Below are positions 10,501 through 36,752 of a DNA stretch of 64,000 nucleotides, in pieces. The translations under genes and the position numbers were made by a program. The stretch comes from Hydrogenophilales bacterium CG12_big_fil_rev_8_21_14_0_65_61_21 (GTDB taxonomy: Bacteria > Pseudomonadota > Gammaproteobacteria > Burkholderiales > Thiobacillaceae), in contig PFGT01000061.1 in the NCBI GenBank assembly GCA_002782005.1, positions 1 through 64,000 on the forward strand, given 5' to 3'. The notes below the pieces were generated by a model. That model searched no databases. It saw only the letters and a list, made by a program, of their open reading frames with translations, and had not been told where the DNA came from. Within the stretch, counting starts at the first letter, position 1. Each line of letters begins with the position of its first letter.

Positions 10501-10776
10501 GGTCCAGGCGATGCGCCGGATGTCATCGCGTTTAACCCGTCGCCGGATAACCTGTTCGATGCTGGCGTAATCGCCGATCACCGCCGATTCGGCGATGGCC
10601 GCCAACAACGAATCCTGCTCGATGACGAGATGCTCCTCGATCTCATGATGGGAAAAATCGGCCTCCTTGGTGGTGGAAACCAGGAGCAGCAAGCTCCCCG
10701 CTACGGCCAGCGCCAGACTCGCGGAAAGCATCACCCGGCCAACCAGGGGCAGCCGCGCCCACAGACCGGGTTTCAC
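7591..10776 (-). CDS. GGDEF-EAL c-di-GMP protein with HAMP, two PAS domains and a degenerate CZB-like tail
   Basis: Membrane protein of 1061 residues from the GTG at 10774-10776, preceded by a GGAGGG site; longer upstream frames run into the preceding gene. Order: membrane helix, periplasmic segment, second helix, HAMP, two PAS domains, GGDEF (GGDEF at 569-573 with an RxxD I-site), EAL (696-698; LDDFGTGYSS and AEGVE present) and a helical tail. Both catalytic cores look intact, so it may make or degrade c-di-GMP. The tail (about 935-1040) matches the CZB zinc-domain spacing (QDW at 943-945, SLFGRW at 969-974), but the His and Cys ligands are replaced. It sits 2 nt after the PhnD-like gene, which probably supplies its periplasmic signal. 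Confidence 0.9.
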   Translation of the reverse strand: MKPGLWARLPLVGRVMLSASLALAVAGSLLLLVSTTKEADFSHHEIEEHLVIEQDSLLAAIAESAVIGDYASIEQVIRRRVKRDDIRRIAWTNARGKQLAASDKDAAPSAPGWFARFTSVPSPQQSRSLVIGSRDYGLVTIEMTATSAINRLWNAFLAHLAILSLALVLDFIGIWLILRSGLRPLRALNQAAESMARGDWSVHVEAAGSRELRNTIDVFNRMAQSIEAARKALMVEKERLQVTLSSIGDAVMATDCEGRVEFINPAAETLTGWTAAEAEGRSVRDVFSIINETTREKVKCPVGRAIREGVVVGLANHTLLIARDGTERPIADSAAPIRHDDGRIVGAVLVFRDQTQERRTLDRLRLAARVFEYAPSGVAITDPWQRIVEINPAFTRLTGYSREEILGQTPRLLSSGRQEAGFYAAMWAAIRATGQWRGEIWNRHKNGEFYPVELAIVAMKDEVGQVSHYIGIFRDISQIKEQQQRLERIAHYDALTQLPNRVLLADRMHMALAQAQRVNGVLAVCYMDLDGFKQVNDELGHEAGDNLLMALSNRVTLALRAGDTVARLGGDEFVLLLGLANIDECRKTLDRLLKAIAEPYPLHNQAVRITASIGVSLFPQDEADPDTLLRHADQAMYTAKESGRNRYHLFDPERDRRTRAHHEAVTRIEQGLRAGEFVLYYQPKVDLRQGKAIGAEALIRWNHPLRGLLPPAEFLPFVEGHEFSIQLGDWVIEQALAQMAAWRAAGIELPVSVNVSARQMQRTDMAEQLAAALARHPEVPPQDLELEILETSALDDILHVTELIESCQRLGVRFALDDFGTGYSSLTYFKRLPAETLKIDQSFVRDMLHDTEDLAIVGGIVGLANAFQRQIVAEGVETVAHGTLLLHLGCDRAQGYAIARPMPASAMPDWIAAWQPDPRWAEACQYPSPPRELPLLVAEFNYQDWIDRVTDRLLRDTGPAATEPEQHASLFGRWLEGAARERYGELEAYKATRAIWRRLVTLANDLLALKQTGQADEARQRLAELDTLNQELLDQLRLFHQARSNDKRRPAVNSRPEQPGT

Positions 10777-10778
10777 GC

Positions 10779-11612
10779 TCAGCGTCCCTCCTGCTTCCAG
10801 ATCAGGCGATAGACCTCGCGCTGATTGCGGTACTCGGCGTCCTGCGCCGGAACGAAACCATAAGGCGGCTTCTGCTTGATGACGGCGGCGCTGGCCTTGA
10901 GTATTTTTAGTCCCTCGGGGTCTTGCGCCATGCCGATTAGCGCATCGCGCACCGCCTGCGCCGCGGCCGCTGGCACGCGCGGATGGGCGGCGATGGGCAG
11001 ATTGAGATAAGGTTCGGAGGTCCACAGCGCACGGTATTTGAAGCCTTCGCGCGCGGCGTATTCCTGCATCACCCTGGAATTGACGCTCGCCGCCTGAATC
11101 TGGCCGGCGCGCATCTGCGCCATGATGCCTTCCTGATTGCCGCCGAATGCCGGTTTGACCGTGATCCCGGTCAGAATCAGCGCGGTCATCGGCGCCATAT
11201 AGCCGACAAAAGCGTTCTTGTTTGGAAAGCCGACTTCCCTGCCCGCCAATTCGCGCAGCGAGCGCAAGGGGGAATCTTCCGGCGTCACGATCTGGCCGTG
11301 GATGGGTTTTCCCGCCGGTCGCGCAATGACCCGGTAACCTGCGGCGGCATGATTCGGGGCGAGGATATGATTGCTATAGACAAAATCGAAATCGCCCCGT
11401 GCTTCCGCGCCGGAATATTCCAAGGCGTCTTTTCTCGTCCCGAGTTCCAGCATCACGCCGCTCTTCTTGCCGGCGTAGTCGAGGATCGGGTTCCAGTATT
11501 GCGCGGTGAGCACGGCGCTTCTCTGTGGAAGTATGCCGAAGGTATAGGCCTGCACGGCCTGCGCCGCCAAGCCGAGCAACAGACCGGCGATCAAGGGAAG
11601 TGCGGGCTTCAT
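10779..11612 (-). CDS. PhnD-like periplasmic substrate-binding protein
   Basis: A 277-residue secreted protein with a signal peptide (MKPALPLIAGLLLGLAAQAV, cleavage after VQA). The mature part has the phosphate/phosphonate-binding fold seen in PhnD: FDFVYSNHILAPNHA and an LRELAGREVGFPNKNAF lobe-closing segment. No ABC permease or ATPase is adjacent. Instead it is packed between an MFS gene (2 nt upstream) and a GGDEF/EAL membrane protein (2 nt downstream), so a sensory role feeding the GGDEF/EAL protein is more likely than transport. The ligand is unknown. Its ribosome site GAGGAG overlaps the end of the MFS gene. Confidence 0.85.
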   Translation of the reverse strand: MKPALPLIAGLLLGLAAQAVQAYTFGILPQRSAVLTAQYWNPILDYAGKKSGVMLELGTRKDALEYSGAEARGDFDFVYSNHILAPNHAAAGYRVIARPAGKPIHGQIVTPEDSPLRSLRELAGREVGFPNKNAFVGYMAPMTALILTGITVKPAFGGNQEGIMAQMRAGQIQAASVNSRVMQEYAAREGFKYRALWTSEPYLNLPIAAHPRVPAAAAQAVRDALIGMAQDPEGLKILKASAAVIKQKPPYGFVPAQDAEYRNQREVYRLIWKQEGR

Positions 11613-11614
11613 CT

Positions 11615-12868
11615 TCAGGTCTCCTCGTTGTTGTTGTTTGATGGTACGAATTTAGCCTGCCGTATAGTACTCCGTAGCCGTTGGAAGTGCAGCAGCCCGG
11701 CCAGCAGCGTCAGCACGCCGCACAGGAATAATGTCGGGCGGATGCCGATGCCGTGCGCCAGGCTGCCGACCACCAGGCTGCCGAGCGGCGCAACGCCGAG
11801 GAAGGCCATCGAGAAGGTGGCCATGACCCGGCCCCGCATGTCGTCCCGCACCCAACTCTGCAACAGGGTGTTGCTGCCGGCGGCGACCAGCACCACGGAA
11901 AAGCCCAGCGCCATCAGGATTGGGTAGGCCAGCGCATGTTGGGTATTCAGGGCAAACAGGGCCAACGCCGCGCCGGCCGAGACGGCCGCTAATGAAACGC
12001 GCTGGGCCAGACCTGTGATGGAGCCGCGCGTGGCCAGGAACAGGCTGCCGCTGAGTGAACCGGCACCGGCGCTGCTGACCAGCAGGCCGAAGGTGCTGGC
12101 GTCGCCGTGGAAGATGGTCTTGACGTACACCGGCATCATGACCACATAAGGCGCGACCAGGAAGCTGACTGCGGCCACCAGCATCAGGAACAGGCGAATG
12201 TCGCGATGGCTGAAGGTATAGCTCAGCCCTTCGCGTAGCGCGTGCAGCGCCGGCTTGGAGCGGTCGCCGCCGGGCCGTGCCCGGATCGCCCACAGCGCCA
12301 GCAGCACCGCCAGGTAGGAGGTGGCGTTGAGGATGAAGCAAATCGCCTCGCCCAGCAGCGCGATGATGAAACCGGCCAAGGCCGGCGCGATGAACCGGGT
12401 GGCGTTCATGAGCAGCGAATTGAGGGCGATGGCGTTTTGCAGATGTGTTCGGTCCGACACCAGATGCACTACCAGCGACTGCCGGGCCGGCATGTCCAGG
12501 GCGTTGATGCAGCCCATGACGAAGGCCATGGTCAGGAGCAGGCTCGGGGTGATCCAGCCCTGCCAGGTCAGGATGGCCAAAATCATGGCTTGGCACATGG
12601 CCAGGGTCTGGGTCAGCATCATCAGGCGGCGGCGGTCCCAGCGGTCCGACCAGACCCCGCCCAGGGCGCCGAACAGCAGGATGGGCGCCTGGCTGGCAAA
12701 ACCGAGCAGTCCCAGCACCAGGGCCGAGTCGGTCAGCCGGTAGGCCAGCCAGCCCATGGCGATCTGCTGCATCCAGGTGCCGGCCACCGAAACGAGCTGA
12801 CCGGCAAAGTAGAGCCGGAAGTCGCGCGAGCGCAGGGCCTTGAGCGGATGGTGGATAATGGCGGACAT
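11615..12868 (-). CDS. MFS exporter (EntS-like, MFS_3 group)
   Basis: Inner-membrane transporter of 417 residues with about 12 hydrophobic segments. The N-terminus LRSRDFRLYFAGQLVSVAGTW and the loop DRWDRRRLMMLTQ (the motif A region) are typical of the EntS/transmembrane-secretion-effector branch of the major facilitator superfamily. I use the ATG at 12868; the frame is open upstream to 13180 but that stretch lies over the divergent fsr gene and has no homologous look. It is the first gene of a four-gene operon with a PhnD-like protein, a GGDEF/EAL protein and an amidotransferase. The substrate is unknown; export of the amidotransferase product is only a hypothesis. Confidence 0.85.
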   Translation of the reverse strand: MSAIIHHPLKALRSRDFRLYFAGQLVSVAGTWMQQIAMGWLAYRLTDSALVLGLLGFASQAPILLFGALGGVWSDRWDRRRLMMLTQTLAMCQAMILAILTWQGWITPSLLLTMAFVMGCINALDMPARQSLVVHLVSDRTHLQNAIALNSLLMNATRFIAPALAGFIIALLGEAICFILNATSYLAVLLALWAIRARPGGDRSKPALHALREGLSYTFSHRDIRLFLMLVAAVSFLVAPYVVMMPVYVKTIFHGDASTFGLLVSSAGAGSLSGSLFLATRGSITGLAQRVSLAAVSAGAALALFALNTQHALAYPILMALGFSVVLVAAGSNTLLQSWVRDDMRGRVMATFSMAFLGVAPLGSLVVGSLAHGIGIRPTLFLCGVLTLLAGLLHFQRLRSTIRQAKFVPSNNNNEET

Positions 12869-12932
12869 CAATTGACTCTGTGAACTCAGCTCGGCATTGG
12901 GTTGCTCGGATTTCAACCCGACCGACAGCCCA

Positions 12933-12949
12933 TATAGTGCAACACTATA
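12933..12949. promoter_or_regulatory. Palindromic operator candidate between divergent transporter genes
   Basis: Perfect inverted repeat TATAGTG-CAA-CACTATA in the 87-nt gap between the MFS operon (start 12868) and the fsr-like gene (start 12956). The arms also resemble -10 hexamers (TATAGT/TATACT), so a bound regulator could block both promoters. No regulator gene is adjacent. The palindrome is read directly; its function is inferred. Confidence 0.55.
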
Positions 12950-12955
12950 CTCATC

Positions 12956-14179
12956 ATGGAAAATAACCCCGCCGCCAACCCTACCGCCTTCAAGGTATTG
13001 GCGGCGATCAGCTTCTCGCATTTTCTCAACGACATCATGCAGTCGTTGATGCTCGCCAGCTATCCGCTGTTCAAGACCGGCTTCGGTCTCAGCTTCAGCC
13101 AGATCGGTATGCTGACCCTGGCCTTCCAGTTCACCGCCTCGCTGCTGCAACCGGCGGTCGGCGCCTATACCGACCGTCACCCCAAACCCTTCTCGCTGGC
13201 CTTGGGCATGGGTTGCACGCTGACCGGTCTGCTGGCGCTATCCGTGGCCTCGACCTTCCCCATGCTGCTCGCGGCCGCCGCCCTGGTCGGCAGCGGTTCG
13301 GCGGTGTTCCATCCGGAGGCCTCGCGGGTGGCGCGCATGGCCTCGGGCGGCCGGCATGGCCTGGCGCAGTCCATCTTCCAGGTCGGCGGCAACACCGGCG
13401 CGGCCTTTGGACCCCTATTGGCGGCCTGGATCGTGTTACCCAACGGCCAGCGCAGCATCGCCCTGTTCGGCCTGGTCGCCCTGCTGGCCATGATCGTGTT
13501 GACCGGCGTCGGCGTCTGGTACCGACGCCAGCACCGCAAACCGAGGCCGGCGGCCGCCGGAACCGGCCACGGGCTGCCTAGAAGCCGCGTCACGCAGACA
13601 CTGGCCGTGCTGCTGGCGCTGATGTTCTCCAAGTTCTTCTATCTGACCAGCATCACCAGCTACCTGATCTTTTACCTGATGGAGCACTACCGGATCGATG
13701 CCCTGGCAGCGCAATACCACCTGTTCTATTTCCTGTTCGCGGTCGCCGCAGGCACCCTGCTGGGTGGCCCCATCGGCGACCGTATCGGCCGCAAGCAGGT
13801 GATCTGGATGTCCATCCTCGGCGTCGCGCCGTTCACCCTGGCCCTGCCCTATGTCGGCCTGGGCGTCTCGGCGGTGCTGACCATGATAATCGGCTTCATG
13901 CTGGCCTCGGCCTTCCCGGCCATGGTGGTTTACGGCCAGGAATTGCTGCCCGGCAAGGTGGGCGCCATCTCCGGGCTATTCTTCGGGCTGGCCTTCGGTC
14001 TGGCCGGCATCGGCGCCGCCGTGCTCGGCCAGGCCGCCGACCACTGGGGCATTGTCACGGTCTACAAGCTGTGTTCATTCCTGCCGCTGATCGGTGTGCT
14101 GGCGGTGTTGTTGCCGGATTTGCACCAGCCGAAGATCGGAGCGGTTTGTCGGACAGAAGTCCAACCTACCAGGATGTAG
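12956..14179 (+). CDS. fsr: MFS transporter of the fosmidomycin-resistance (Fsr) family
   Basis: A 407-residue, 12-helix inner-membrane antiporter. The N-terminus FSHFLNDIMQSLMLASYPLF and the GSAVFHPEASRVARMASG stretch in helix 4 are hallmarks of Fsr-type drug exporters. The GDRIGRKQVIW loop begins the second half. It is transcribed divergently from the MFS/PhnD/GGDEF-EAL operon and begins 7 nt after the palindrome at 12933-12949. The native substrate is unknown, as for most members. Confidence 0.9.
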   Translation: MENNPAANPTAFKVLAAISFSHFLNDIMQSLMLASYPLFKTGFGLSFSQIGMLTLAFQFTASLLQPAVGAYTDRHPKPFSLALGMGCTLTGLLALSVASTFPMLLAAAALVGSGSAVFHPEASRVARMASGGRHGLAQSIFQVGGNTGAAFGPLLAAWIVLPNGQRSIALFGLVALLAMIVLTGVGVWYRRQHRKPRPAAAGTGHGLPRSRVTQTLAVLLALMFSKFFYLTSITSYLIFYLMEHYRIDALAAQYHLFYFLFAVAAGTLLGGPIGDRIGRKQVIWMSILGVAPFTLALPYVGLGVSAVLTMIIGFMLASAFPAMVVYGQELLPGKVGAISGLFFGLAFGLAGIGAAVLGQAADHWGIVTVYKLCSFLPLIGVLAVLLPDLHQPKIGAVCRTEVQPTRM

Positions 14180-24157: not shown

Positions 24158-24598
24158 TCAGGGCTTGAAAATAGGGATCGCCAGGGTCATGCCATGGGCG
24201 GCGGCGTTGTTGGCAAGCGTCCGGTCCAGGGTCGCGAAATGGCTGGCTTGCAAACGTTGCGCGATAGCGAGGTGCAGGCCGCCGCCGGCACGCAATCCGG
24301 ACGGCGCATGGCGGCACAATTCACGGGCGCGCCGATAATCGACCTCGGTCGGTACCGCATGGGGAGCGAAATAGGCGGCGAATTCATCGATGTCCACGCT
24401 GGCCGCGAGCTGCCCAGCGGCATCCATCTCGCCGCGCCGGAGCTTGATCGCCAGCGCGCTCTCGCACTCCAGCCGCATCCAGGTCGACAGGATCAGTCCG
24501 CCGCCGCTTTGGCCGGCCAGCCATTCCTGGGCCATGGCGGTATACGTCTCACGGGTGTGGGCAGCCACTAGCACGCTGGTGTCGACATAGACGCGCAT
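24158..24598 (-). CDS. vapC: VapC-type PIN toxin
   Basis: A 146-residue PIN-domain ribonuclease toxin: MRVYVDTSVLVAA (first Asp), RLECESALAIKL (Glu), then GLHLAIAQRLQASHFATLDR with the later acidic positions. The ATG overlaps the VapB stop by one base. The next gene downstream, the COG2509 dehydrogenase, starts immediately after (24156), so the toxin gene could carry it on the same transcript. Confidence 0.88.
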   Translation of the reverse strand: MRVYVDTSVLVAAHTRETYTAMAQEWLAGQSGGGLILSTWMRLECESALAIKLRRGEMDAAGQLAASVDIDEFAAYFAPHAVPTEVDYRRARELCRHAPSGLRAGGGLHLAIAQRLQASHFATLDRTLANNAAAHGMTLAIPIFKP

Positions 24599-24858
24599 CA
24601 GTACCGTTCTTCCTCGCGCAGCAGTTGCGCCGCCGGCGTAGTCATGGCTTGGTCAGCCAGGTGCGCATTGACCTGGGCAAAATGGCCTTGCAGTTGCTCG
24701 GCTCGCGCCTTTTTGCCTGCCGGCACCAATTCGAGGGTACCGGCCGGCGTGGTCTCACAATCGACCAGTGCGCCTTCCTCAAGCGCCAAGTCGCGGGCGA
24801 CCTCGGCCGGGATGCGAACCGCCAGGCTGTTGCCCCACCGCGAAACAGTCAGTTGCAT
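24598..24858 (-). CDS. vapB: VapB-type AbrB antitoxin
   Basis: An 86-residue antitoxin. MQLTVSRWGNSLAVRIPAEV is the SpoVT/AbrB DNA-binding hairpin typical of VapB, and the tail from about residue 50 is the toxin-binding part. It precedes and overlaps vapC. A perfect 9-bp inverted repeat lies 12 nt upstream. Confidence 0.9.
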   Translation of the reverse strand: MQLTVSRWGNSLAVRIPAEVARDLALEEGALVDCETTPAGTLELVPAGKKARAEQLQGHFAQVNAHLADQAMTTPAAQLLREEERY

Positions 24859-27102: not shown

Positions 27103-27483
27103 TCATCCCTTCACCACCCCATCCAACCCCATAGCCAGTATCGCAGCATCGCGTGTCAGCAGCGTCAATCGCTCATCCTGCGCCTGGGCGATGAGCAGCC
27201 GGTCGAATGGGTCGGCGTGTGTGCAAGTCAGACCGCGCACGGTCTCAATGTGGCGCGGCAAGATCGGCAGCAGGACAAAACCCTGTGCTTCGAGTTGTTC
27301 AGTGATCGCGCCTTGTGGCAAGGGTAATTTGCCCTTGGCATTTTTCAGCACCATTTCCCACACGCTGGCGGTGCTCACGATAATTTCTGACTTGGCGATG
27401 AGGCCTTGCGTGGCTTTGCCCAAACGGGCATCCGCTGTCATCCACCAATAGATCAGGTGGGTGTCGAGCAGGTATCGCCTCAT
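27103..27483 (-). CDS. PIN-domain toxin of a Phd-PIN pair
   Basis: A 126-residue PIN protein: RRYLLDTHLIYWWMTAD (first Asp), ASVWEMVLKN (Glu), and ADPFDRLLIAQAQDE then LLTRDAAILAMG. It shares the DTH...WE...DPFDR plan with the toxin at 19937-20323. The ATG (27481-27483) overlaps the antitoxin stop by 4 nt (ATGA). A longer frame to 27573 overlaps the antitoxin and is not used. Confidence 0.88.
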   Translation of the reverse strand: MRRYLLDTHLIYWWMTADARLGKATQGLIAKSEIIVSTASVWEMVLKNAKGKLPLPQGAITEQLEAQGFVLLPILPRHIETVRGLTCTHADPFDRLLIAQAQDERLTLLTRDAAILAMGLDGVVKG

Positions 27484-27725
27484 GGCAATTCGCCATCGGT
27501 GAGCGCATCGGCAATGGCGGCATTCGTCACGGGAGTATCCCAATCGGCTTTGGCCTTCGGCAACGCCGACCATGCGCCGGGCTTGCGCGAGAAATCCTGG
27601 GCGCCGATTCTAACCAGCCTGACGACCGGAACCCCCTTGTTGGCGATGACTACATCCTCGCCCGCCAGCGCGGCTTGCACCAGCTTGGAAAGCTGGCTCT
27701 TGGCTTCGAGCATGTTGCATTGCAT
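27480..27725 (-). CDS. Phd/YefM-type antitoxin
   Basis: An 81-residue antitoxin starting MQCNMLEAKSQLSKLVQAAL, the Phd/YefM fold, followed by VVIANKGVPVVRLV. A GTG at 27732-27734 is an alternative start. Its upstream region (27761-27789) contains a perfect TGGCTAA/TTAGCCA repeat and a stretch nearly identical to the promoter of the other Phd-PIN pair at 19647. Confidence 0.86.
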   Translation of the reverse strand: MQCNMLEAKSQLSKLVQAALAGEDVVIANKGVPVVRLVRIGAQDFSRKPGAWSALPKAKADWDTPVTNAAIADALTDGELP

Positions 27726-27760
27726 GTTTAACACCTTGATAAATTTCGCCGGATGTACGC

Positions 27761-27846: not shown

Positions 27847-27870
27847 TCGTGCACGTGCACGCACGTGCAC
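27847..27870. repeat. Short CGTGCA-type tandem at left edge of the RAYT element
   Basis: An iterated GTGCAC/GTGC tract lies directly outside the left inverted repeat of the transposase element. It is a run of overlapping palindromes. A different short tandem (CGTGCTTC twice, 28790-28805) lies at the right edge. Confidence 0.55.
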
Positions 27871-28794
27871 GGGGTCAGGTCTATCAACATAGCATTCTTC
27901 TCCCGCACCCATCTCCCCGAACAATTCTTCCCACAGTCGTGAAATGCACGCCGAAGTAGTCTGCGATTTGCTGGTAAGAATAACCGCCCGTCGCGTGTGC
28001 CGCGACGATGGCGGCATTTCTGTCTGGCGCGCGTTCCGCGATTTCTGCCAGTGGCGGCGGCTCGGGGCGGCGCTGGGCGCGGGGGATTTGCACATCATCC
28101 TTGCCTGTCTGGATATGCGCTTGCATTCGAGTTACAAACCGTTCATCGCCCAGGAATACCTGCCCTTTGAGATGAGCCCAAGGCGAACCCACCTTGATGC
28201 CTTCCGACACGAATTGCGCATAACGTTGCTGTGCCGAGCTGCGCCGCTTGGCGAACATCGCCAGCAACCCATCTTCCGCTAACCAAGGGGGTGCAGGCTC
28301 CAAGCCCATGCTGGCCCGATAGCTGCTCCATGCCCAATCGTTCGGCTTTTTTACCCTGCCTGCGCGAACTGGATTGAGCACAATGTAACGCGCCAATTCC
28401 AGCAGGTAGGCGTCTTTGTCCACCAGGATGGCTTTGAAACGCCCTTGGAACAAATGCCCGACACGCTGGTGCCGCCGATTGCTGGCCTGGGTGTATACGC
28501 CGTTGAGCTGGCGCATCCCTTTGGATAAATTGCCGTCGGGTGTCTGGATCAGCAGGTGGTAGTGGTTGTCCATCAGGCACCATGCATAGCATGTCCAGTT
28601 GAACTGGTTGATGACCTGCTCCAGCGTCACCAGGAACGTCGACCGGTCCTGGTCATCCTCGAAAATAGCCTCGCGCCTATCCCCACGTGCGGTGACGTGG
28701 TAGAGCGCATCGGGAAACTCTATTCGGATTGGGCGGGACATGATGCGGGAAATATAACTGAAAACATGCTACTTCGCTAGACCTGACCCCGTGC
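27867..28794 (-). mobile_element. RAYT element bounded by 17-bp inverted repeats
   Basis: The transposase gene is enclosed by perfect 17-bp inverted repeats: GCACGGGGTCAGGTCTA at 27867-27883 and its complement at 28778-28794. TAGCAT is also shared 6 nt further in on both sides. The left repeat directly abuts the transposase stop codon. The repeat core GGGGTCAGGTCT recurs as half-elements elsewhere in the window (32780, and variants at 20371 and 35274), which fits a REP-associated tyrosine transposase and its dispersed repeats. Confidence 0.75.
27884..28741 (-). CDS. REP-associated tyrosine (Y1, IS200-like) transposase
   Basis: A 285-residue HUH single-strand transposase. MSRPIRIEFPDALYHVTARG is the typical RAYT N-terminus, WCLMDNHYHLLIQTP carries the HYH metal-binding pair, and GHLFQGRFKAILVDKDAYLL with the following YIVLNPVRAG is the family core containing the catalytic Tyr. 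The C-terminal part (TGGYSYQQIADYFGVHFTTV) is an added helix-turn-helix, as in the longer RAYT subgroup. The gene appears intact. It is inserted beside a truncated AlbA-type gene of a type I restriction locus. Confidence 0.9.
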   Translation of the reverse strand: MSRPIRIEFPDALYHVTARGDRREAIFEDDQDRSTFLVTLEQVINQFNWTCYAWCLMDNHYHLLIQTPDGNLSKGMRQLNGVYTQASNRRHQRVGHLFQGRFKAILVDKDAYLLELARYIVLNPVRAGRVKKPNDWAWSSYRASMGLEPAPPWLAEDGLLAMFAKRRSSAQQRYAQFVSEGIKVGSPWAHLKGQVFLGDERFVTRMQAHIQTGKDDVQIPRAQRRPEPPPLAEIAERAPDRNAAIVAAHATGGYSYQQIADYFGVHFTTVGRIVRGDGCGRRMLC

Positions 28795-28805
28795 TTCCGT
28801 GCTTC
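28790..28805. repeat. CGTGCTTC tandem duplication at right edge of the RAYT element
   Basis: CGTGCTTC occurs twice in direct succession, the first copy overlapping the last five bases of the right inverted repeat. Similar short duplications of unrelated sequence sit beside other copies of the same core motif in this window. Confidence 0.6.
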
Positions 28806-28806
28806 C

Positions 28807-29049
28807 GCGTTTGCCCAGATGCCACCAAGTGAACGGTTGGAGGCTTGTTATCAGCACGCTGTGCTTAAACATCTGTCTGGCAGTGTGATGACGAACAAGA
28901 TATTGCGTGAGCGTCTCAAAATGCCCGAAAAACAGCGCTCAATGGTTTCGACACTCATTCAGGAGGCGATTGACCGTAAGCTCATCAAAGCGGCAGACCC
29001 GGAAAACAAATCCAGGAAGTTTTCCGAGTATGTGCCGATGTGGGCGTAG
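28807..29049 (+). pseudogene. C-terminal fragment of an AlbA-type ATP-binding protein (restriction-locus accessory)
   Basis: The frame ending at the TAG at 29047-29049 reads MPPSERLEACYQHAVLKHLS, then KILRERLKMPEKQRSMVSTL and a KFSEYVPMWA end. As I recall it, this is the winged-helix tail of the large AlbA/RecG-like ATP-binding proteins found in type I restriction operons. Only about 80 residues remain, beginning at the edge of the RAYT element. The start ATG at 28819 could allow expression, but a remnant is more likely. Confidence 0.65.
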
Positions 29050-29130
29050 GCCATTTTGATGTCATGAACACGTACACCTGTACTGTGGATGGCTTGGTCG
29101 AGCAATCCACAATCCAGTGCTTCCCTTTTC

Positions 29131-29162
29131 TTGATGGGAAAAGTAGTATGTTTTTCCATCAA
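29131..29162. promoter_or_regulatory. Inverted repeat upstream of the AbiE pair
   Basis: TTGATGGGAAAA (29131-29142) and TTTTTCCATCAA (29151-29162) are complementary at 11 of 12 positions with an 8-nt spacer, 19 nt before the antitoxin start. AbiEi antitoxins are known to repress their own promoters by binding inverted repeats, so this is a good operator candidate. Confidence 0.62.
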
Positions 29163-29181
29163 ATCTGCCGGTGTGATTGTG

Positions 29182-29790
29182 ATGCAATCCATTAATAATA
29201 AAGCGATTTCAAGAATATACGGGCGCGGCATGGGTTGGGCGTTCTCGCCGAATGATTTCGTCGAGGGTTTCAGCCGCGATCAGATTGAAAATGCGCTGTC
29301 GAGGCTATGCCGCGAGGGGAAGATACGCCGTGTCTGCCGTGGAATTTACGACTATCCCAAATTCAGCGAGTTGTTGAAGCAGGACTTGAGCCCGGATTTC
29401 GACCAGGTGGCACAGGCGTTCGCGCGCAAGTTCAACTGGCGCATCCAGCCTTCGGGCGACGCGGCGCTGAATCTGCTGGGGCTTTCCACGCAGGTGCCCG
29501 GTCGGCTGGTGTATCTCTCCGATGGGCCGAACCGCCAGTACGAAATCGGTAATTACATGCTGGAATTCAAGAAATCCGCACTGAAGGATGTTGGCTTCAA
29601 ATACCGCGAAAGCGGGCTGATCGTGCAGGCGTTGAAGGCGCTGGGGCAGGAGCGGGTGGACGATACGGTGATCGCCACGCTGCGCAAACAACTGGATGAA
29701 ACGGCGTGCAAGCGGGTGCTGAAAGATGCGGTGACGGCGACCGGCTGGGTGTATGAGGCGATCAAGCGGGTGTGCGGGGAGCGCGGCTGA
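29182..29790 (+). CDS. AbiEi-like antitoxin (DUF6088 type)
   Basis: A 202-residue protein matching the type IV antitoxin/DUF6088 family: an N-terminal winged helix (GRGMGWAFSPNDFVEGF, then ALSRLCREGKIRRVCRGIYD) and a C-terminal domain (LLGLSTQVPGRLVYLSDGP). I start at the ATG at 29182; the frame is open to 29089 but the extra residues would read through the upstream inverted repeat. Its stop overlaps the toxin ATG (TGATG). The pair lies where AbiE modules commonly occur, inside type I restriction operons. Confidence 0.82.
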   Translation: MQSINNKAISRIYGRGMGWAFSPNDFVEGFSRDQIENALSRLCREGKIRRVCRGIYDYPKFSELLKQDLSPDFDQVAQAFARKFNWRIQPSGDAALNLLGLSTQVPGRLVYLSDGPNRQYEIGNYMLEFKKSALKDVGFKYRESGLIVQALKALGQERVDDTVIATLRKQLDETACKRVLKDAVTATGWVYEAIKRVCGERG

Positions 29791-30782
29791 TGGAGTCGGT
29801 CGCGCGTTTTTCACCCGCAGAGCGCCGCGAGCTGTTTGCCGAAACGGCGGCGCGCAAGGGCATGACGCCCGCCGTGGTGGAGAAAGATTTCTGGGTGTGC
29901 TGGACGCTGGGCAGGCTGTTCGCGCACCCCGATTTGTCGCGCTTGCTGATGTTCAAGGGTGGCACCAGCTTGTCCAAGGTGTTCCATCTAATCGAGCGGT
30001 TTTCCGAGGATATCGACCTGATCCTGGATTGGCGCGTGGTGGTCGGGGAGGATGATCCGTTGGCAGATCGTTCCGCCACCAAACAGGAAACGCTGAATAA
30101 AACGATAGACACCAAGGCGGTGGATTACATCGGGGGTGAGTTGCTGGCGCTGGTCTCGCAAGCTGTTGATCCAATCTGCCGTTGTGATCTGGCTGCCGAT
30201 GATCTTCATGCCTTGAATGTCCAATACCCGGCTGCCTTTTCTGATGCCTATCTGCGTCCGGAAGTGCGCCTTGAGATCGGGCCGCTGGCCGCCTGGATGC
30301 CCTACGGCCATTACCGAATCCAGCCTTATGCCGCCGAGGCATTCCCGCAGCTTTTCAAGCAAGCGGATTGTGCCGTGCAGGCCATCCGAGCCGAGCGTAC
30401 CTTCTGGGAAAAGGCGACGATACTGCATCACGAAGCCCATCGCCCTGAAGACAGCCCACAGCCGCTACGCTATTCGCGGCACTATTACGACCTGGCCATG
30501 ATGGCGGCTTCTCCGGTGAAAGATGCGGCGCTGGCCGATCTTGCCTTGCTGGAGGATGTGGTGGCGTTCAAGCAGCGGTTTTATCGGCGCGACTGGGCGC
30601 ATTACGATCTGGCAACGCCGGGAACGTTCAGACTGCTGCCTGCGGGACATGTGCTGGCGGTAGTCGAGAAGGATTATGTGCAGATGCGCAACATGATCTT
30701 CGGTCGCTATCCTGGCTTCGACGAAATCATGGAGGTATTGCGGACGCTGGAGGGGGAGATCAATGGGCTACACCGAGGATAG
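29790..30782 (+). CDS. AbiEii/AbiGii nucleotidyltransferase toxin
   Basis: A 330-residue nucleotidyltransferase-fold toxin. The motif LMFKGGTSLSKVFHLIERFS followed by EDIDL gives the GG(S/T) and DxD-like catalytic positions of AbiEii/MenT, and AIRAERTFWEKATILHHEAH is the conserved C-terminal motif. Family members transfer nucleotides to tRNA or other targets and can give phage protection by abortive infection. The start overlaps the antitoxin stop, and the last 20 nt overlap the hsdR start. Confidence 0.88.
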   Translation: MESVARFSPAERRELFAETAARKGMTPAVVEKDFWVCWTLGRLFAHPDLSRLLMFKGGTSLSKVFHLIERFSEDIDLILDWRVVVGEDDPLADRSATKQETLNKTIDTKAVDYIGGELLALVSQAVDPICRCDLAADDLHALNVQYPAAFSDAYLRPEVRLEIGPLAAWMPYGHYRIQPYAAEAFPQLFKQADCAVQAIRAERTFWEKATILHHEAHRPEDSPQPLRYSRHYYDLAMMAASPVKDAALADLALLEDVVAFKQRFYRRDWAHYDLATPGTFRLLPAGHVLAVVEKDYVQMRNMIFGRYPGFDEIMEVLRTLEGEINGLHRG

Positions 30783-31419
30783 TCTGGTCGAGCAACCTGC
30801 CATCCAGCTTTTCGCCGAGCTGGGCTGGGAGACGTTATCAGCTTCGGAAGAGGCGCTGGGCGCAGGCGGCTTGCTTGGCCGCGAGACCAAATCCGAGGTG
30901 GTGCTGGCGGTGCGCTTGCGCGCTGCCCTGGCTCGACTGAATCCATCCCTGCCGCCCGAAGCCATCAGCGCCGCCGTGGATGAGTTGTCGCGCGACCGCT
31001 CTGCCATGACACCTGCTGCCGCGAACCGTGAATTGTGGGCGTTGATGCGCGACGGGGTGAAGGTGTCCGTGCCTGATCTGGTGAAAGGCGGCCTGAAAAC
31101 CGAGCGAGTGCGGGTGGTGGATTGGGAGAATCCCGCCGCCAACGATTTCCTGCTGGTAAGCCAGATGACCATCGTCGGCCAGCTTTACACCTGCCGCCCG
31201 GATTTGATCGGTTTCGTGAATAGCTTGCCGTGGGTGGTGGTCGAGCTAAAAAAGCCGGGCTTGCCTGCCAGGCAAGCCTTCGACGGCAACCTCACCAGTT
31301 ACAAGCACGCGCAGAATGGCGTGCCCGCGCTGTTCTGGTCGAATGCCCTGCTGATCGCTTCCAACGGCACGGATAGCCGCGTCGGATCGCTGACTGCCGA
31401 TTGGGAGCGGTTCTTCGAG
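30763..31419 (+). pseudogene. hsdR: Type I restriction subunit HsdR, truncated by an ISL3-family element
   Basis: Only the N-terminal 219 residues or so of HsdR remain. They include the PD-(D/E)xK nuclease core: CRPDLIGFVNSLPWVVVELK gives the Asp and the ELK triad. Homologous sequence ends at about SLTADWERFFEW, where the IS left end begins; the open frame then runs on through IS sequence to a stop at 31498-31500. The helicase/translocase part is absent on the other side of the IS, so restriction activity is lost. No hsdM or hsdS gene is present in the window. Confidence 0.85.
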
Positions 31420-32757
31420 TGGGTAATGGTGCGTGACAAGCGCGGCAATTGCCGAACCGAGTGCGCGAGTAAGATGCGCGCCCCTGTGAAACGTGAGTGA
31501 CCGTGACATGACCGCCAAGTTGTTCGAAGCCGCCCTGGGCATTACCCCCCCGTGGTACATCAACGGGGTCGAGTTTGACGTAGCCAAGAAGACGCTGTCG
31601 ATTGCCGTCGACTTCATCGCCGGCAGCCGCTTTGCCGTGCCTGGCGTCGAGGGGTCGCACCCGGCACACGACACCGTGCCCAAGCGCTACCGGCATCTGA
31701 ACTTCTTTCAACATGAGTGCCACCTGGAGGTTCGTGTCCCGCGCGTGCGCGTGCCCGATGGTGGCATTCGGCAGGTCGAACCCGACTGGGCCGGACGGCT
31801 GGCCGGCTTTACCCTGCTCTTCGAGGCGTTGATCATGGCGATGTGCCGGGAAATGACCTTCGCGGCGGTGTCCCGTTTGGTGGGCTTGTCCTGGCATCAG
31901 GTCGTGGCGATCTGCAAGCGTTACGTCGAGCTGGGGCTGGAGCAGGCCGACTTCTCCGAGGTCAAGCGCCTGGCGGCGGATGAAACTTCCAAGGCGCGCG
32001 GGCATGACTACATCACGCTGGTGGCCGATGCCGACTTGCGCCGGGTGTTGTTCGTCACGGAAGGACGCGACGCCGACACGATCAAGGCCTTCGCCGCCGA
32101 CTTCACCGCCCACGGCAGCGATCCGAAGGCCGTCGAGTCCATTTCCATCGACATGTCGCCGGCCTTCATCAAGGGGGTCACCAAGCATCTGCCCAATGCC
32201 CGGATCACCTTCGACAAGTTCCATGTCATCGCCCACGCCAGCACCGCCGTCGACAAGACCCGGCGCATCGAGCAGAAGACCGATCCGAGCCTCAAGGGCT
32301 TGCGCTGGAAGCTTCTGCGGGATCGCGCCAGTCTTCTACCTGCCGCCCGCGCCGATCTGGATGCCCTCGTCACGCAAGTGACCACCAAACGCACGGCCCG
32401 CGCCTGGCTCTACAAGGAACAGTTGCGGGAGATTCTGGAGCGCAAGCAGATCAATGTCGTGCGTGACATGCTCACGCAATGGGCCACCAACGTGATGCGC
32501 TCGAAGGTCGAGCCGATGAAGGAAGTGGCGAAGATGATCCGCTCTCATCTCGACGGCATCATCGCCTGGACCCAGACGCGCCAGACCAACGGCTTCCTCG
32601 AAGCCATCAATGGCTTGTTTCAGGCCGCCAAACGCAAGGCGCGCGGCTATGGCCGTTTCTCTACCATGCGCACCGTCGTCTTCCTCCTCGCCGGCAAGCT
32701 CGATTTCAGCAAGATCAACCCCCATGCCGCTTAACCCACTCGTTTTTCAAAAGAGCC
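31409..32757 (+). mobile_element. ISL3-family insertion sequence (about 1.35 kb)
   Basis: The right end complement begins GGCTCTTTTG and continues with CGAGTGGGTTAAG after an 8-nt stretch; the left end reads GGTTCTTCGAGTGGGTAATG. The two ends share GGyTCTT and CGAGTGGGT, with 8 bases missing from the left one, so the left terminus may be trimmed or recombined with similar hsdR sequence. No matching 8-bp target duplication is visible (TTGGGAGC versus GGAAAGAG), so flanking DNA has probably been deleted. The transposase is intact. Confidence 0.75.
31493..32734 (+). CDS. ISL3-family transposase
   Basis: A DDE transposase of 413 residues (or 408 from the ATG at 31508). ISL3 hallmarks are visible: VKRLAADETSKARGHDYITL (first Asp), ESISIDMSPAFIKGV then ITFDKFHVI (second Asp region) and QTRQTNGFLEAINGLFQAAK (Glu) near the C-terminus. 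The frame is uninterrupted, so the element may be mobile. It is inserted into hsdR of the type I restriction locus. Confidence 0.92.
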   Translation: MSDRDMTAKLFEAALGITPPWYINGVEFDVAKKTLSIAVDFIAGSRFAVPGVEGSHPAHDTVPKRYRHLNFFQHECHLEVRVPRVRVPDGGIRQVEPDWAGRLAGFTLLFEALIMAMCREMTFAAVSRLVGLSWHQVVAICKRYVELGLEQADFSEVKRLAADETSKARGHDYITLVADADLRRVLFVTEGRDADTIKAFAADFTAHGSDPKAVESISIDMSPAFIKGVTKHLPNARITFDKFHVIAHASTAVDKTRRIEQKTDPSLKGLRWKLLRDRASLLPAARADLDALVTQVTTKRTARAWLYKEQLREILERKQINVVRDMLTQWATNVMRSKVEPMKEVAKMIRSHLDGIIAWTQTRQTNGFLEAINGLFQAAKRKARGYGRFSTMRTVVFLLAGKLDFSKINPHAA

Positions 32758-32779
32758 GGAAAGAGGATGCGTTAATGCA

Positions 32780-32811
32780 AGACCTGACCCCGTTGGTTCC
32801 TCCGTTGGTTC
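32780..32811. repeat. RAYT-type half-element with 9-bp tandem duplication
   Basis: AGACCTGACCCCG (32780-32792) equals one arm core of the RAYT inverted repeats. It runs directly into CGTTGGTTC repeated with a 12-bp period (32791-32799 and 32803-32811). It lies 23 nt beyond the ISL3 right end. Confidence 0.6.
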
Positions 32812-32815
32812 ATGC

Positions 32816-32890
32816 CTGCTCTGGACGATCTACGCCTTGTCGACCGGCGATCACCACCTGGTGAGCGAGCAGCTGGGCGAATCGACATGA
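32816..32890 (+). pseudogene. C-terminal remnant of an unidentified protein
   Basis: One frame reads LLWTIYALSTGDHHLVSEQL and four more residues before TGA at 32888-32890. The segment looks like a genuine protein end (hydrophobic, then polar tail), but I cannot name the family. It directly follows the tandem duplication of the RAYT-like half-element, which may have replaced the rest of the gene. Confidence 0.3.
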
Positions 32891-32982
32891 GTTCGGCTTG
32901 TTTTGTAGACAGGTCGTGGGGCGCATGATCGCTTCCAGCAACCACGCCACACAAGCAACGCAAGGAATACCCAGGAGGCGGC

Positions 32983-34977
32983 TTGATACAATCCCGACAT
33001 CTTTTTAACCAAACCATAACCACCTCAGTGATGCCCAAGCTGCCAACCAAGACCCTCATCGCCGCCGTACTTTTTGTCCTCTTCGGAGCCTGGATGGCCA
33101 GCATTGTGCCCAGCCCGGAAATCGCTGTGGTCATGTGCATCCTCCTGCTGACGGTGTTTCTCTTCGCCTTCGAAGTGGTGGGTGTGGACGTGGCGGCGGT
33201 GACCGTCATGGTGCTGCTGGGCCTGCTCAGTTCCTTCAACGACCTCCTGGGCCTGGCCCAGCCCCTGGTGCCCACCACCGAACTCTTTCGCGGCTTTTCC
33301 AGCAACGCGGTCATGTCCATCATCGCGGTGATGATCATCGGCGCCGGCCTCGACAAGACCGGGCTCATGGGCAAGGTTGCCGGCACCATCCTCAAGCTGG
33401 CCGGCCGGACCGAGGCCCGTGTCATCCCCGCCATTTCGGGCACCGTCGGCTTCATCTCCAGCTTCATGCAGAACGTAGGGGCCGCCGCTCTCTTTTTGCC
33501 CGTGGTGAGCCGCATCTCCGCCCGCACCGGCCTGCCCCTGTCACGTCTGCTGATGCCCATGGGCTTCTGCGCCATCCTGGGGGGCACCATCACCATGGTG
33601 GGTTCCAGCCCTCTCATCCTGCTCAACGACCTGATCCTCACCTCTAACAAGGCCTTGCCGGCTGAGCAGCAGATGGAAACCTGGTCGCTGTTCTCCGTCA
33701 CCCCCATCGGCATAGCCCTGCTCGCCACTGGCATCGCCTATTTTGTTTTCGCCGGCCGCTTCGTGCTGCCGGGCAAACAACACGAGGACATGACCCAAGG
33801 CGGCAATACCATGCAGTACTTCCAGGATCTCTATGGTCTGGACGAAGGACTGTTCGAGGTGGTGGTGCCGGCCGGAAGCCCGATGATCGGCCAGATGCTG
33901 GACGACGTGGAGCAGGGCAGCAAGGTGCGCATCATCGCCGCTCTACGCGGCACCGAGGATCTGCGCATCGGCCCCGGCAGCCTCGCCCGGGACATCGGTA
34001 TCGAGGCCAATACGGTGCTGGGCATCCTCGCCTCGCCGGAAAAGCTAGCCGCCCTGGCGGCAAGCAATGGCCTGCAAGTGCGCAATGATCTGGAGACCTT
34101 CTCCGAGGCACTCGCCGCCACCAAGGCCGGCATCGCCGAGGTGGTCATCCCGCCAGGCTCGGAACTCATCGGCCAGAGCGCGCGGGATGTCTGGCTGCGC
34201 AAGACCTATGGCCTTGCCATGGTGGCACTGCACCGGGGCGGCGAGACCTTGCGGGAAGACGAGGACATCCGCAACCTCCCGCTGCAAGCCGGCGACGTCC
34301 TCGTTGTCCACACCAGCTGGGATGCGCTTGCACAGCTGGAGCCGAACAGGAACTTCGTGGTGCTCACCACCGAGTATCCCCACGAGGAGACCCGCCCCCA
34401 CAAACTGGTGCCGGCTCTGGTTTTTTTTGGCATCGCCCTCTTCATGCTGCTTTTCACCGACGTGCGCCTGTCCATCGCCCTGATGACCGGCGCCATCGGC
34501 ATGATTCTCTCCGGCGTGCTACGCATCGAGGAGGCTTACCAAGCAGTGAGCTGGAAGTCGGTCTTCCTGCTGGCCAGCCTGATTCCCCTGGGGCTGGCGG
34601 TGGAAACCAGCGGCACCGCTGCCTGGATCGCCGAGCAGACCCTGTCCCTGCTGGGCGGTGTGCCCACTTGGGTGCTGCAGCTGGCCATCGCTGTCCTGGC
34701 CACTTTCTTCACCCTGGTGATGTCCAACGTGGGCGCCACCGTGCTGCTGGTACCCCTGGCGGTGAACATCGCAATCGGCGCTGGTGCCAACCCGGCGGTG
34801 TTCGCCCTGACCGTGGCCCTCGCCACCTCCAACGCCTTCTTCCTGCCCACCCATCAGGTCAACGCCCTCATCATGGGCCCGGCCGGTTACCGGGTCGTCG
34901 ACTTCATGAAGGCGGGGGGCATCATGACCGTGCTGTTCCTGGCCGTGATGATGCTGATGCTGAACCTGATCTACTGA
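32983..34977 (+). CDS. SLC13/DASS-family permease with two RCK_C domains
   Basis: A 664-residue inner-membrane transporter. Hydrophobic segments at about 20-290 and 470-664 enclose a cytoplasmic insert of two TrkA/RCK_C-like domains (LFEVVVPAGSPMIGQMLDD and IAEVVIPPGSELIGQSARD), the layout of bacterial sulfate/dicarboxylate SLC13 permeases. FISSFMQNVGAAALFLPVV and TLVMSNVGATVLLVPLAV are the paired transporter signatures (N-x-G-A). The TTG at 32983 is used because AGGAGG lies 4 nt before it; an ATG at 33031 is the alternative. Both flanks are accessory DNA, so it may have arrived with the island. Confidence 0.82.
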   Translation: MIQSRHLFNQTITTSVMPKLPTKTLIAAVLFVLFGAWMASIVPSPEIAVVMCILLLTVFLFAFEVVGVDVAAVTVMVLLGLLSSFNDLLGLAQPLVPTTELFRGFSSNAVMSIIAVMIIGAGLDKTGLMGKVAGTILKLAGRTEARVIPAISGTVGFISSFMQNVGAAALFLPVVSRISARTGLPLSRLLMPMGFCAILGGTITMVGSSPLILLNDLILTSNKALPAEQQMETWSLFSVTPIGIALLATGIAYFVFAGRFVLPGKQHEDMTQGGNTMQYFQDLYGLDEGLFEVVVPAGSPMIGQMLDDVEQGSKVRIIAALRGTEDLRIGPGSLARDIGIEANTVLGILASPEKLAALAASNGLQVRNDLETFSEALAATKAGIAEVVIPPGSELIGQSARDVWLRKTYGLAMVALHRGGETLREDEDIRNLPLQAGDVLVVHTSWDALAQLEPNRNFVVLTTEYPHEETRPHKLVPALVFFGIALFMLLFTDVRLSIALMTGAIGMILSGVLRIEEAYQAVSWKSVFLLASLIPLGLAVETSGTAAWIAEQTLSLLGGVPTWVLQLAIAVLATFFTLVMSNVGATVLLVPLAVNIAIGAGANPAVFALTVALATSNAFFLPTHQVNALIMGPAGYRVVDFMKAGGIMTVLFLAVMMLMLNLIY

Positions 34978-36104: not shown

Positions 36105-36521
36105 TCAAGTGGCTTCGTGCCAGTTCAGCCACTGCAAGCCTTGCACACGGGAAAATTCGCGCACGTTGCGCGTCACCAACGTAGCCTGATAACGCAATGC
36201 CGTGGCAGCGATCAGCGTATCGTGCGGGCCGATGGGTGTGCCAGCGGCTTCCAGTTCGACACGGATACGGGCAGCATGAGCCGCGCATTCGCTGTCAAAC
36301 GGTAAAACCTGCATCGGTCGCAGCAAAGCGGCCAATGCCGCCAGACGGGGATTAGCTGCCTCCGGTGGCAAACGCAAAAGACCGTAGCGCAGTTCGTATT
36401 CCACAATAGCGGGGACACCGACATCGGCAGGGGATAGGGCTTGCAGGCGCGGCACCACCTGCGGATCGCCGCGAAAATAGTAGCTGATAGTGTTGCTATC
36501 GAGAATCAGCATGGCAGGCAC
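36105..36521 (-). CDS. vapC: VapC-type PIN toxin (paired with CopG-like antitoxin)
   Basis: A 138-residue PIN ribonuclease toxin: MLILDSNTISYYFRGDPQVV (first Asp), VEYELRYGLLR (Glu), IGPHDTLIAATALRYQATLV (third Asp) and TRNVREFSRV (final acidic region), the full VapC pattern. The C-terminal VQGLQWLNW is a common family end. It directly follows the ribbon-helix-helix antitoxin gene. The group II intron remnant ends 19 nt downstream of its stop, on the opposite strand. Confidence 0.9.
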   Translation of the reverse strand: MPAMLILDSNTISYYFRGDPQVVPRLQALSPADVGVPAIVEYELRYGLLRLPPEAANPRLAALAALLRPMQVLPFDSECAAHAARIRVELEAAGTPIGPHDTLIAATALRYQATLVTRNVREFSRVQGLQWLNWHEAT

Positions 36522-36752
36522 TCAAAAACCAACGCGCGGCACATCGGCGGGCTGCGAGGTCGGACTTTCTTCGCGCAGGGGGAAATCGGCAAAACGCCCC
36601 GCCAAAGTTAAACAGTCTTGCGGCCACTCATGGGCGGCGTATTTGCGGATCATTTCGGCCACCCATCGGCTTTTCGATAGACCATTAGCCTGTGCGGCCT
36701 GATCTACCAGTGCCTGCGTGGCATCGTCCAGATATAGCGTGATTTGTGACAT
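36522..36752 (-). CDS. CopG/ribbon-helix-helix antitoxin
   Basis: A 76-residue protein with the RHH pattern ITLYLDDATQALVDQAAQAN followed by GLSKSRWVAEMIRKYA. The C-terminal region (about 50-76) would contact the VapC toxin. It starts at the ATG at 36750-36752, 23 nt from a perfect 13-bp inverted repeat that probably binds it. Confidence 0.88.
   Translation of the reverse strand: MSQITLYLDDATQALVDQAAQANGLSKSRWVAEMIRKYAAHEWPQDCLTLAGRFADFPLREESPTSQPADVPRVGF

Follow-up and report, generated by a model that had tools for sequence, protein, structure and literature searches.

The window analysed here is bases 1-64000 of contig C90 (71,950 bases) in the draft genome of a Hydrogenophilales bacterium (2,265,232 bases in 126 contigs, 99.5% complete), and our subject is an abiEi-abiEii toxin-antitoxin (TA) pair that stands in it between pieces of broken genes. 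We conclude that this locus is very probably the remnant of a type I restriction operon that has lost both flanks and holds a whole AbiE module within. From left to right the block comprises a REP-associated tyrosine transposase (RAYT) element, the tail of an AlbA_2/MloB gene, a palindrome, abiEi, abiEii, an hsdR stub, an ISL3 element and a second RAYT-type end motif, as listed below. The case is mostly an ordinary one, AbiE being well known and TA pairs in the hsdS-hsdR interval being already in print; the coupling of abiE to hsdR across several phyla is the part for which we have not met a counterpart in the literature searched.

27867-28794, minus strand: RAYT element, a 29-nt terminal inverted repeat (27867-27895 and 28766-28794) around transposase gene 27884-28741
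28810-29049, plus strand: C-terminal remnant of an AlbA_2/MloB-type ATP-binding protein, about 79 aa long and truncated on the upstream side beside the RAYT end
29131-29162, no strand: inverted repeat TTGATGGGAAAA-GTAGTATG-TTTTTCCATCAA, 11/12 paired, centre 35 nt before abiEi; presumed AbiEi operator
29182-29790, plus strand: abiEi antitoxin gene, 202 aa, DUF6088/AbiEi type; stop codon and abiEii start share 1 nt
29790-30782, plus strand: abiEii toxin gene, 330 aa, PF08843; KGG, 15 residues after GG, then DID
30763-31422, plus strand: hsdR stub, first 220 codons (660 nt), HSDR_N nuclease domain only; ATG 20 nt inside abiEii
31416-31424, plus strand: hsdR/ISL3 joint CGAGTGGGT, with GAGTGG common to the relatives' hsdR and the inner ISL3 left inverted repeat
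31423-32757, plus strand: ISL3-family element lacking the outer left inverted repeat, with the transposase at 31493-32734 and a whole right inverted repeat at 32735-32757
32777-32793, plus strand: RAYT-type end motif GCAAGACCTGACCCCGT, repeating 28776-28792 in direct orientation; the two copies enclose the whole block

Results

The AbiE pair and its palindrome

A sequence-only reading of this DNA had described abiEi and abiEii as intact between broken neighbours, and both frames are indeed open and full length. AbiEii matches PF08843 at 1.9e-36, while AbiEi matches DUF6088 at 4.1e-37 and the PADLOC AbiEi model at 2.1e-64 and falls just below the cut-off of Pfam AbiEi_4 (24.6 bits against 25); on these profiles we class the antitoxin as AbiEi-like, of the DUF6088 branch. 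Across 87 aligned AbiEii rows, drawn from one AbiEii-seeded scan (80 loci kept) and from the loci of another search, R70, D74, D76, K208 and D234 are present without exception, and K56, G57, G58, D74, D76, K208 and D234 are kept in at least 86. The toxin carries the hG[G/S]x15DhD motif, defined for DUF1814 toxins in the part of PMC3985639 that treats it, together with the motif II arginine of AbiE toxins, and its antitoxin gene lies directly upstream, as in AbiE type IV systems. In systems of this type the toxin arrests growth, and the antitoxin rescues the cell without forming a complex with it. The relevant sections of the published work have AbiEi repressing via inverted repeats and neutralising AbiEii, whose motifs are required for toxicity (PMC3985639, PMC7319586). 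By analogy, the module would still work as an autoregulated TA pair with a phage-defence or self-maintenance effect.

The 11/12 inverted repeat claimed before abiEi was found at 29131-29162, with 12-nt arms, an 8-nt spacer and a shuffle p of 0.005 (TTGATGGGAAAA-8-TTTTTCCATCAA); its role as operator is presumed. The same analysis covered 81 loci (among L003-L090, plus the window; five were dropped for contig edges or unaligned N-termini, and others failed the E-value limit). The best inverted repeat reached p <= 0.05 in 71 of the 81 loci (about 4 expected) and p <= 0.01 in 57 (about 1 expected), and in those 71 the median repeat centre lies 34 bases upstream of the abiEi start. Arm sequences vary among loci yet remain complementary. 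Across phyla, palindromes of quite different sequence stand at a near-constant distance before abiEi, which suggests that operator and antitoxin specificity may change together.

The end of hsdR and its age

On the downstream side, the hsdR piece matches HSDR_N at 2.9e-38, the match ending at residue 215 of 220. The frame continues through foreign sequence to 31500 (245 aa in all), its product reading WERFFEW and then foreign residues, and the DNA likeness of three relatives (L011, L015 and L016) to the window ends at base 31422. When the complete HsdR of L011 was searched against the window's own draft genome, the sole match was 30763-31437; a rest of hsdR continued elsewhere in an intact operon, for which the sequence-only reading had allowed as its own undoing, was looked for in this draft genome and not found.

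That hsdR was cut by the ISL3 element was not borne out. The element's transposase matches DDE_Tnp_ISL3 at 9.8e-62 and the right terminal repeat is whole, with the outer part of the left repeat and the 8-bp duplication absent. The foreign part at the joint starts with CGAGTGGGTAATGG, the inner part of the ISL3 left inverted repeat; at the matching place, an intact relative on a Paraburkholderia plasmid (L117) has CGAGTGGGTAATG with the outer repeat before it, and an 8-bp duplication left of that repeat recurs on the right side. A clean insertion into hsdR is ruled out by the absence of the left repeat tip and of the left target duplication. Because a plain insertion would leave both, the joint, which lies inside the element's left inverted repeat, looks like the product of a later deletion that joined hsdR to a neighbouring ISL3 element within GAGTGG. 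The element is present in one copy in the draft genome, and a search of the window for a second copy of its right repeat (up to 3 mismatches) returned none.

Between the window and L011, the ratio of non-synonymous to synonymous divergence (dN/dS) is 0.082 for abiEi, 0.074 for abiEii and 0.091 for the hsdR stub, in which there is no stop and no frameshift. Synonymous and non-synonymous changes on the window branch number 18 and 11 in abiEi, 62 and 21 in abiEii and 28 and 17 in the stub; on the L011 branch they number 18 and 3, 33 and 13, and 33 and 9 in hsdR. The stub's non-synonymous share exceeds that of the L011 branch, but so does that of the intact abiEi, making this a weak signal. Given the low amino-acid change and the open frame, the stub's divergence appears to have built up mostly under constraint, which suggests a recent truncation. 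The notion that AbiE "outlived" the restriction system is unsupported as worded: beside a stub without stop or frameshift, its survival so far may be short, and after so recent-looking a truncation the persistence of AbiE here, at a single locus, tests the idea of outliving only weakly.

The upstream flank

The RAYT transposase scores 94.7 bits on NCBIfam model NF047646 (cut-off 80), and its inverted ends are 86% complementary over 29 nt, so that the element has both the Y1 transposase and the inverted ends of a RAYT. Beside it, the AlbA_2/MloB remnant is 33-51% identical to the C-termini of "ATP-binding protein/MloB" proteins of about 490 aa; this match starts at about 28810, beside the RAYT end (28766-28794), and the claim that the AlbA-like gene is cut at the RAYT side stands. 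The remnant itself has no Pfam match, and thus neither AlbA_2 nor HATPase_c_4; its complete relatives carry SLFN_AlbA_2 and HATPase_c_4. Among 19 MloB-type loci fetched from the class, the order hsdM-hsdS-MloB-hsdR occurs in four (L149, L151, L152 and L155), and hsdM-hsdS is present in a fifth (L161). Four plasmid MloB-type loci were opened, of 63 matching records; none lies in an hsd operon and one lies in another defence cluster. In L158 (3-3919), a tandem double AbiE pair stands near an MloB-type gene.

The neighbours on this flank are the RAYT, a Phd/PIN pair and a further open reading frame (ORF) that we take to be argB. The RAYT end motif has only 7 copies genome-wide, 3 of them around this block; at C88 2042-2104, three copies of the motif AGACCTGACCCCG lie exactly 25 bases apart. 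Small TA-like pairs within 13 kb are found at 27103-27734 (the Phd/PIN pair, confirmed by Pfam) and, by eye, at 24158-24858 and 36105-36752.

hsdM and hsdS

A type I restriction-modification (R-M) system needs hsdM, hsdS and a full-length hsdR, and at this locus we find only 220 hsdR codons. Neither hsdM nor hsdS stands beside the block, in agreement with the claim that both are gone. Genome-wide, HsdS (PF01420) has no match in the draft, and the hsdM family PF02384 has a single weak match, inside a 305-aa frame, leaving no typical hsdM in the 2.27 Mb. Two further partial HSDR_N frames lie near contig starts, in C51 (161-376) and in C62 (1565-1762, which contains Ns), and their partners could be in unassembled sequence. 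The genome-wide absence of hsdM and hsdS is for this reason less certain than their absence at the locus, and we do not conclude that type I methylation is missing from the organism.

Relatives with abiE and hsdR

Decay of restriction genes is common. In 20 accepted loci, the window included, abiEii is followed by at least a trace of hsdR: the gene is intact in eight (L011, L015, L021, L031, L034, L043, L045 and L059), broken in seven (the window, L014, L017, L028, L037, L041 and L042) and runs off the contig in five (L016, L029, L033, L036 and L040). AbiEii is full length in all seven broken-hsdR loci and AbiEi in six, the AbiEi of L041 being cut by a contig end, and AbiEii is split in one of the eight intact-hsdR loci (L045); these counts are to be read knowing that AbiEii seeding conceals loci where AbiE was lost, that the draft-genome frameshifts in L028 and L041 may be sequencing errors, and that hsdR is a target three times longer. 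The clearest parallel is L014, with about 54 bases of hsdR left and an in-frame stop, and the stubs of L037 and L042 are about 135 and 64 residues long. The self-contained AbiE cassette often stays intact where the adjoining hsdR breaks.

L045 presents the reverse order of decay, its AbiEii (9968-10978) being split while hsdM, hsdS, the AlbA_2 gene and hsdR are open. In L017, from a complete betaproteobacterial chromosome, HsdR (10999-13182) lacks about 330 internal residues (template 545-873) with the frame still open. Two loci were set aside: L013, in which likeness ends no more than about 10 nt beyond the abiEii stop and the tblastn match lies mostly in the abiEii overlap, and L081, whose frame resembles HsdR only weakly. 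No trace of hsdR is present in L012.

The window falls in a well-supported clade of eight rows (support 99), in which L011, L015, L016 and L017 have hsdR and L012-L014 were placed without it. In those four loci, abiEi-abiEii is followed by a continuing hsdR, the genes touching or overlapping; the HsdR of L011 scores 488.8 bits on TIGR00348 (cut-off 284.55). A gene upstream of abiEi in L011 was considered as hsdS and rejected, since its family matches show a HerA-like ATPase.

The junction between abiEii and hsdR is tight in most hsdR-adjacent loci, stop and start overlapping or lying within about 25 bases. The hsdR ATG lies 20 bases inside abiEii in the window, L011 and L015; an ATGA/GTGA-type overlap occurs in L017, L028, L029 and L037, a TAATG junction in L016, L031 and L033, and a distance of 2-7 bases in L034, L045 and L040. 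Other sequence separates the genes in L021 and L036. In L043 (10999-11411), a small ORF (11046-11411) stands between abiEii and hsdR and has apparently detached hsdR's first codons. From this closeness, co-expression of abiE and hsdR appears likely, and with it control of hsdR by AbiEi.

Occupants of the hsdS-hsdR interval

In the reverse direction, a search with the HsdR of L011 gave matches at E <= 1e-90 in 57 of the 369 genomes of the class. Among 40 listed matches, picked by score with the N-terminus present (34 of the upstream pieces exceeding 2 kb), hsdM and/or hsdS was found upstream in 32, and neither profiles nor tblastn found AbiEi or AbiEii upstream in any. Since none of these 40 pieces holds it, AbiE is a rare, optional guest of such operons and not a regular part. 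To speak of the restriction system "that carried" AbiE is accordingly more than the survey supports, AbiE being an occasional guest that is mostly found without hsdR. Other guests beside or near abiE are HerA-like (L011), AriAB-like (L034), PrrC-like (L043), SLFN_AlbA_2 (L045) and Abi_C (L017) genes, and the order in L045 is hsdM-hsdS-SLFN_AlbA_2-abiEi-abiEii-hsdR.

Discussion

The ancestral operon order would have been hsdM-hsdS-AlbA_2/MloB-abiEi-abiEii-hsdR. We propose that its upstream part was lost up to the RAYT element, and that a deletion took away the downstream part of hsdR, its joint falling in 6-7 bases common to hsdR and the left inverted repeat of the adjacent ISL3 element. AbiE may have stayed whole because it is a self-contained cassette, with its own promoter region, its own palindromic operator and the antitoxin gene before the toxin gene. 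AbiEi would repress its own promoter through the inverted repeat and counteract AbiEii, and AbiEii, a predicted nucleotidyltransferase toxin, would halt growth when the antitoxin fails, for example upon phage infection. For repression, toxicity and phage defence we draw on published AbiE work; the anatomy, the breaks and the conserved palindrome and motifs are observations on these loci.

Several results weigh against this reading. The window's AlbA tail matches none of the 88 loci L003-L090, a whole-MloB profile picks up L067 and L045, where the MloB-type gene stands over 4 kb away from abiE, and among the loci examined no relative has the full ancestral order with the window's AlbA sub-type. 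The operon order imagined by the sequence-only reading is thus plausible in the light of L045 and the four MloB-type operons, and lacks a relative with the same AlbA sub-type. In addition, AbiEi scores 24.9 on NCBIfam TAA_AbiEi (cut-off 150), a sequence search for solved structures returned none for AbiEi or AbiEii, and a promoter scan of 28760-33050 scored no sigma-70-like promoter.

One alternative, which we consider rather unlikely, is that the AbiE cassette moved in from an intact operon with a bit of flanking hsdR, the site never having held a working restriction system in this lineage. AbiE is mostly without hsdR and in changing surroundings; the homology of L011, L013, L014 and L015 to the window begins near 29112-29120 regardless of upstream content; the block lies between two RAYT-type end motifs; and a genus relative (G001) that keeps the downstream transporter has no related neighbourhood. 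The comparison of genus relatives for an empty site gave no usable synteny, with a lengthwise match for the transporter alone. However, what is left in the window includes 660 nt of hsdR as well as an AlbA_2/MloB tail, on the expected sides, and a moved cassette need not carry both; moreover, the MloB gene type sits between hsdS and hsdR in 4 of the 19 MloB-type loci.

It is improbable that the 245-aa hsdR' frame is alive, as a small retained gene whose product, translated from the abiE transcript, would be an HSDR_N nuclease domain on its own. The break does fall just past the end of HSDR_N, the residues aligned to positions 151, 165 and 167 of EcoR124I (presumably the catalytic ones) are kept as D, E and K, and the frame, without stop or frameshift, has a window-branch count far from neutral; yet a recent break would give the same signal, no other locus surveyed showed a stub of that length, and no HsdR nuclease domain is known to act without motor and methylase. 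That the joint is a draft assembly artefact is very improbable, for although the draft has 126 contigs and two other hsdR-like frames stop near contig starts, the element is single-copy, which makes repeat-driven misjoining unlikely, shared bases of the kind often seen in deletions stand at the joint, and the draft holds no other piece of this hsdR.

Returning to the remnant of a type I operon, comparison with known systems places it among familiar arrangements. Type I R-M operons with a TIGR00348 HsdR differ from the window, which keeps the N-terminal domain only, without hsdM and hsdS. PrrC-type genes occur inside type I operons, and are likewise guest defence genes, L043 having a PrrC-like part in the same slot; unlike AbiE, they are not a TA pair with an operator of their own. 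In the sections of PMC12255303 that describe it, DarTG2 sits between hsdS and hsdR with the repressor RptR in enteropathogenic E. coli, at a potential recombination hotspot. The window resembles this in that a TA pair occupies the hsdS-hsdR interval of a type I operon, and differs in that DarTG2 is of another TA family with a separate repressor upstream of the operon (PMC12255303), whereas here the presumed antitoxin operator directly precedes the pair and the toxin gene overlaps hsdR. With the AbiE of Streptococcus agalactiae and with Rv2827c/Rv2826c, as far as the relevant parts of the two reports describe them, the window shares the antitoxin-toxin bicistron, the DUF1814 toxin motif, an AbiEi-like antitoxin and a promoter-region inverted repeat; the published AbiEi binds two 23-bp inverted repeats, whereas the window has one palindrome (12-nt arms, 8-nt spacer) (PMC3985639, PMC7319586). 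The window's antitoxin is also of the DUF6088 kind, and in several relatives the pair is packed against hsdR. In the portions of the literature that our search reached, including PMC11514479 and PMC7251935, no account of AbiE control of hsdR or of the decay of such loci turned up, and we do not claim its absence from print.

More tentatively, abiEi-abiEii-hsdR in the intact relatives may form one translationally coupled unit, such that AbiEi controls restriction too, and the window would possibly represent a stage after restriction loss in which a lone HSDR_N is still under AbiEi control. The recurrent abiEii/hsdR overlap fits AbiEi control of hsdR, as does the palindrome, which reaches p <= 0.05 in 17 of the 18 hsdR-adjacent loci analysed (all except L040; L041, of the 19, was left out). 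If this is true, toxin and HsdR would be set free at the same time whenever AbiEi fails.

Altogether, the locus provides an example, with relatives at several stages, of a broken multi-gene defence operon in which a unit with its own presumed operator stays and a large nuclease gene goes. The case also points to the hsdS-hsdR interval as a place where guest defence genes turn over, with HerA-like, AriAB-like, PrrC-like, AlbA_2, Abi_C and AbiE genes among them, and it suggests a link between an antitoxin repressor and the expression of a restriction subunit.

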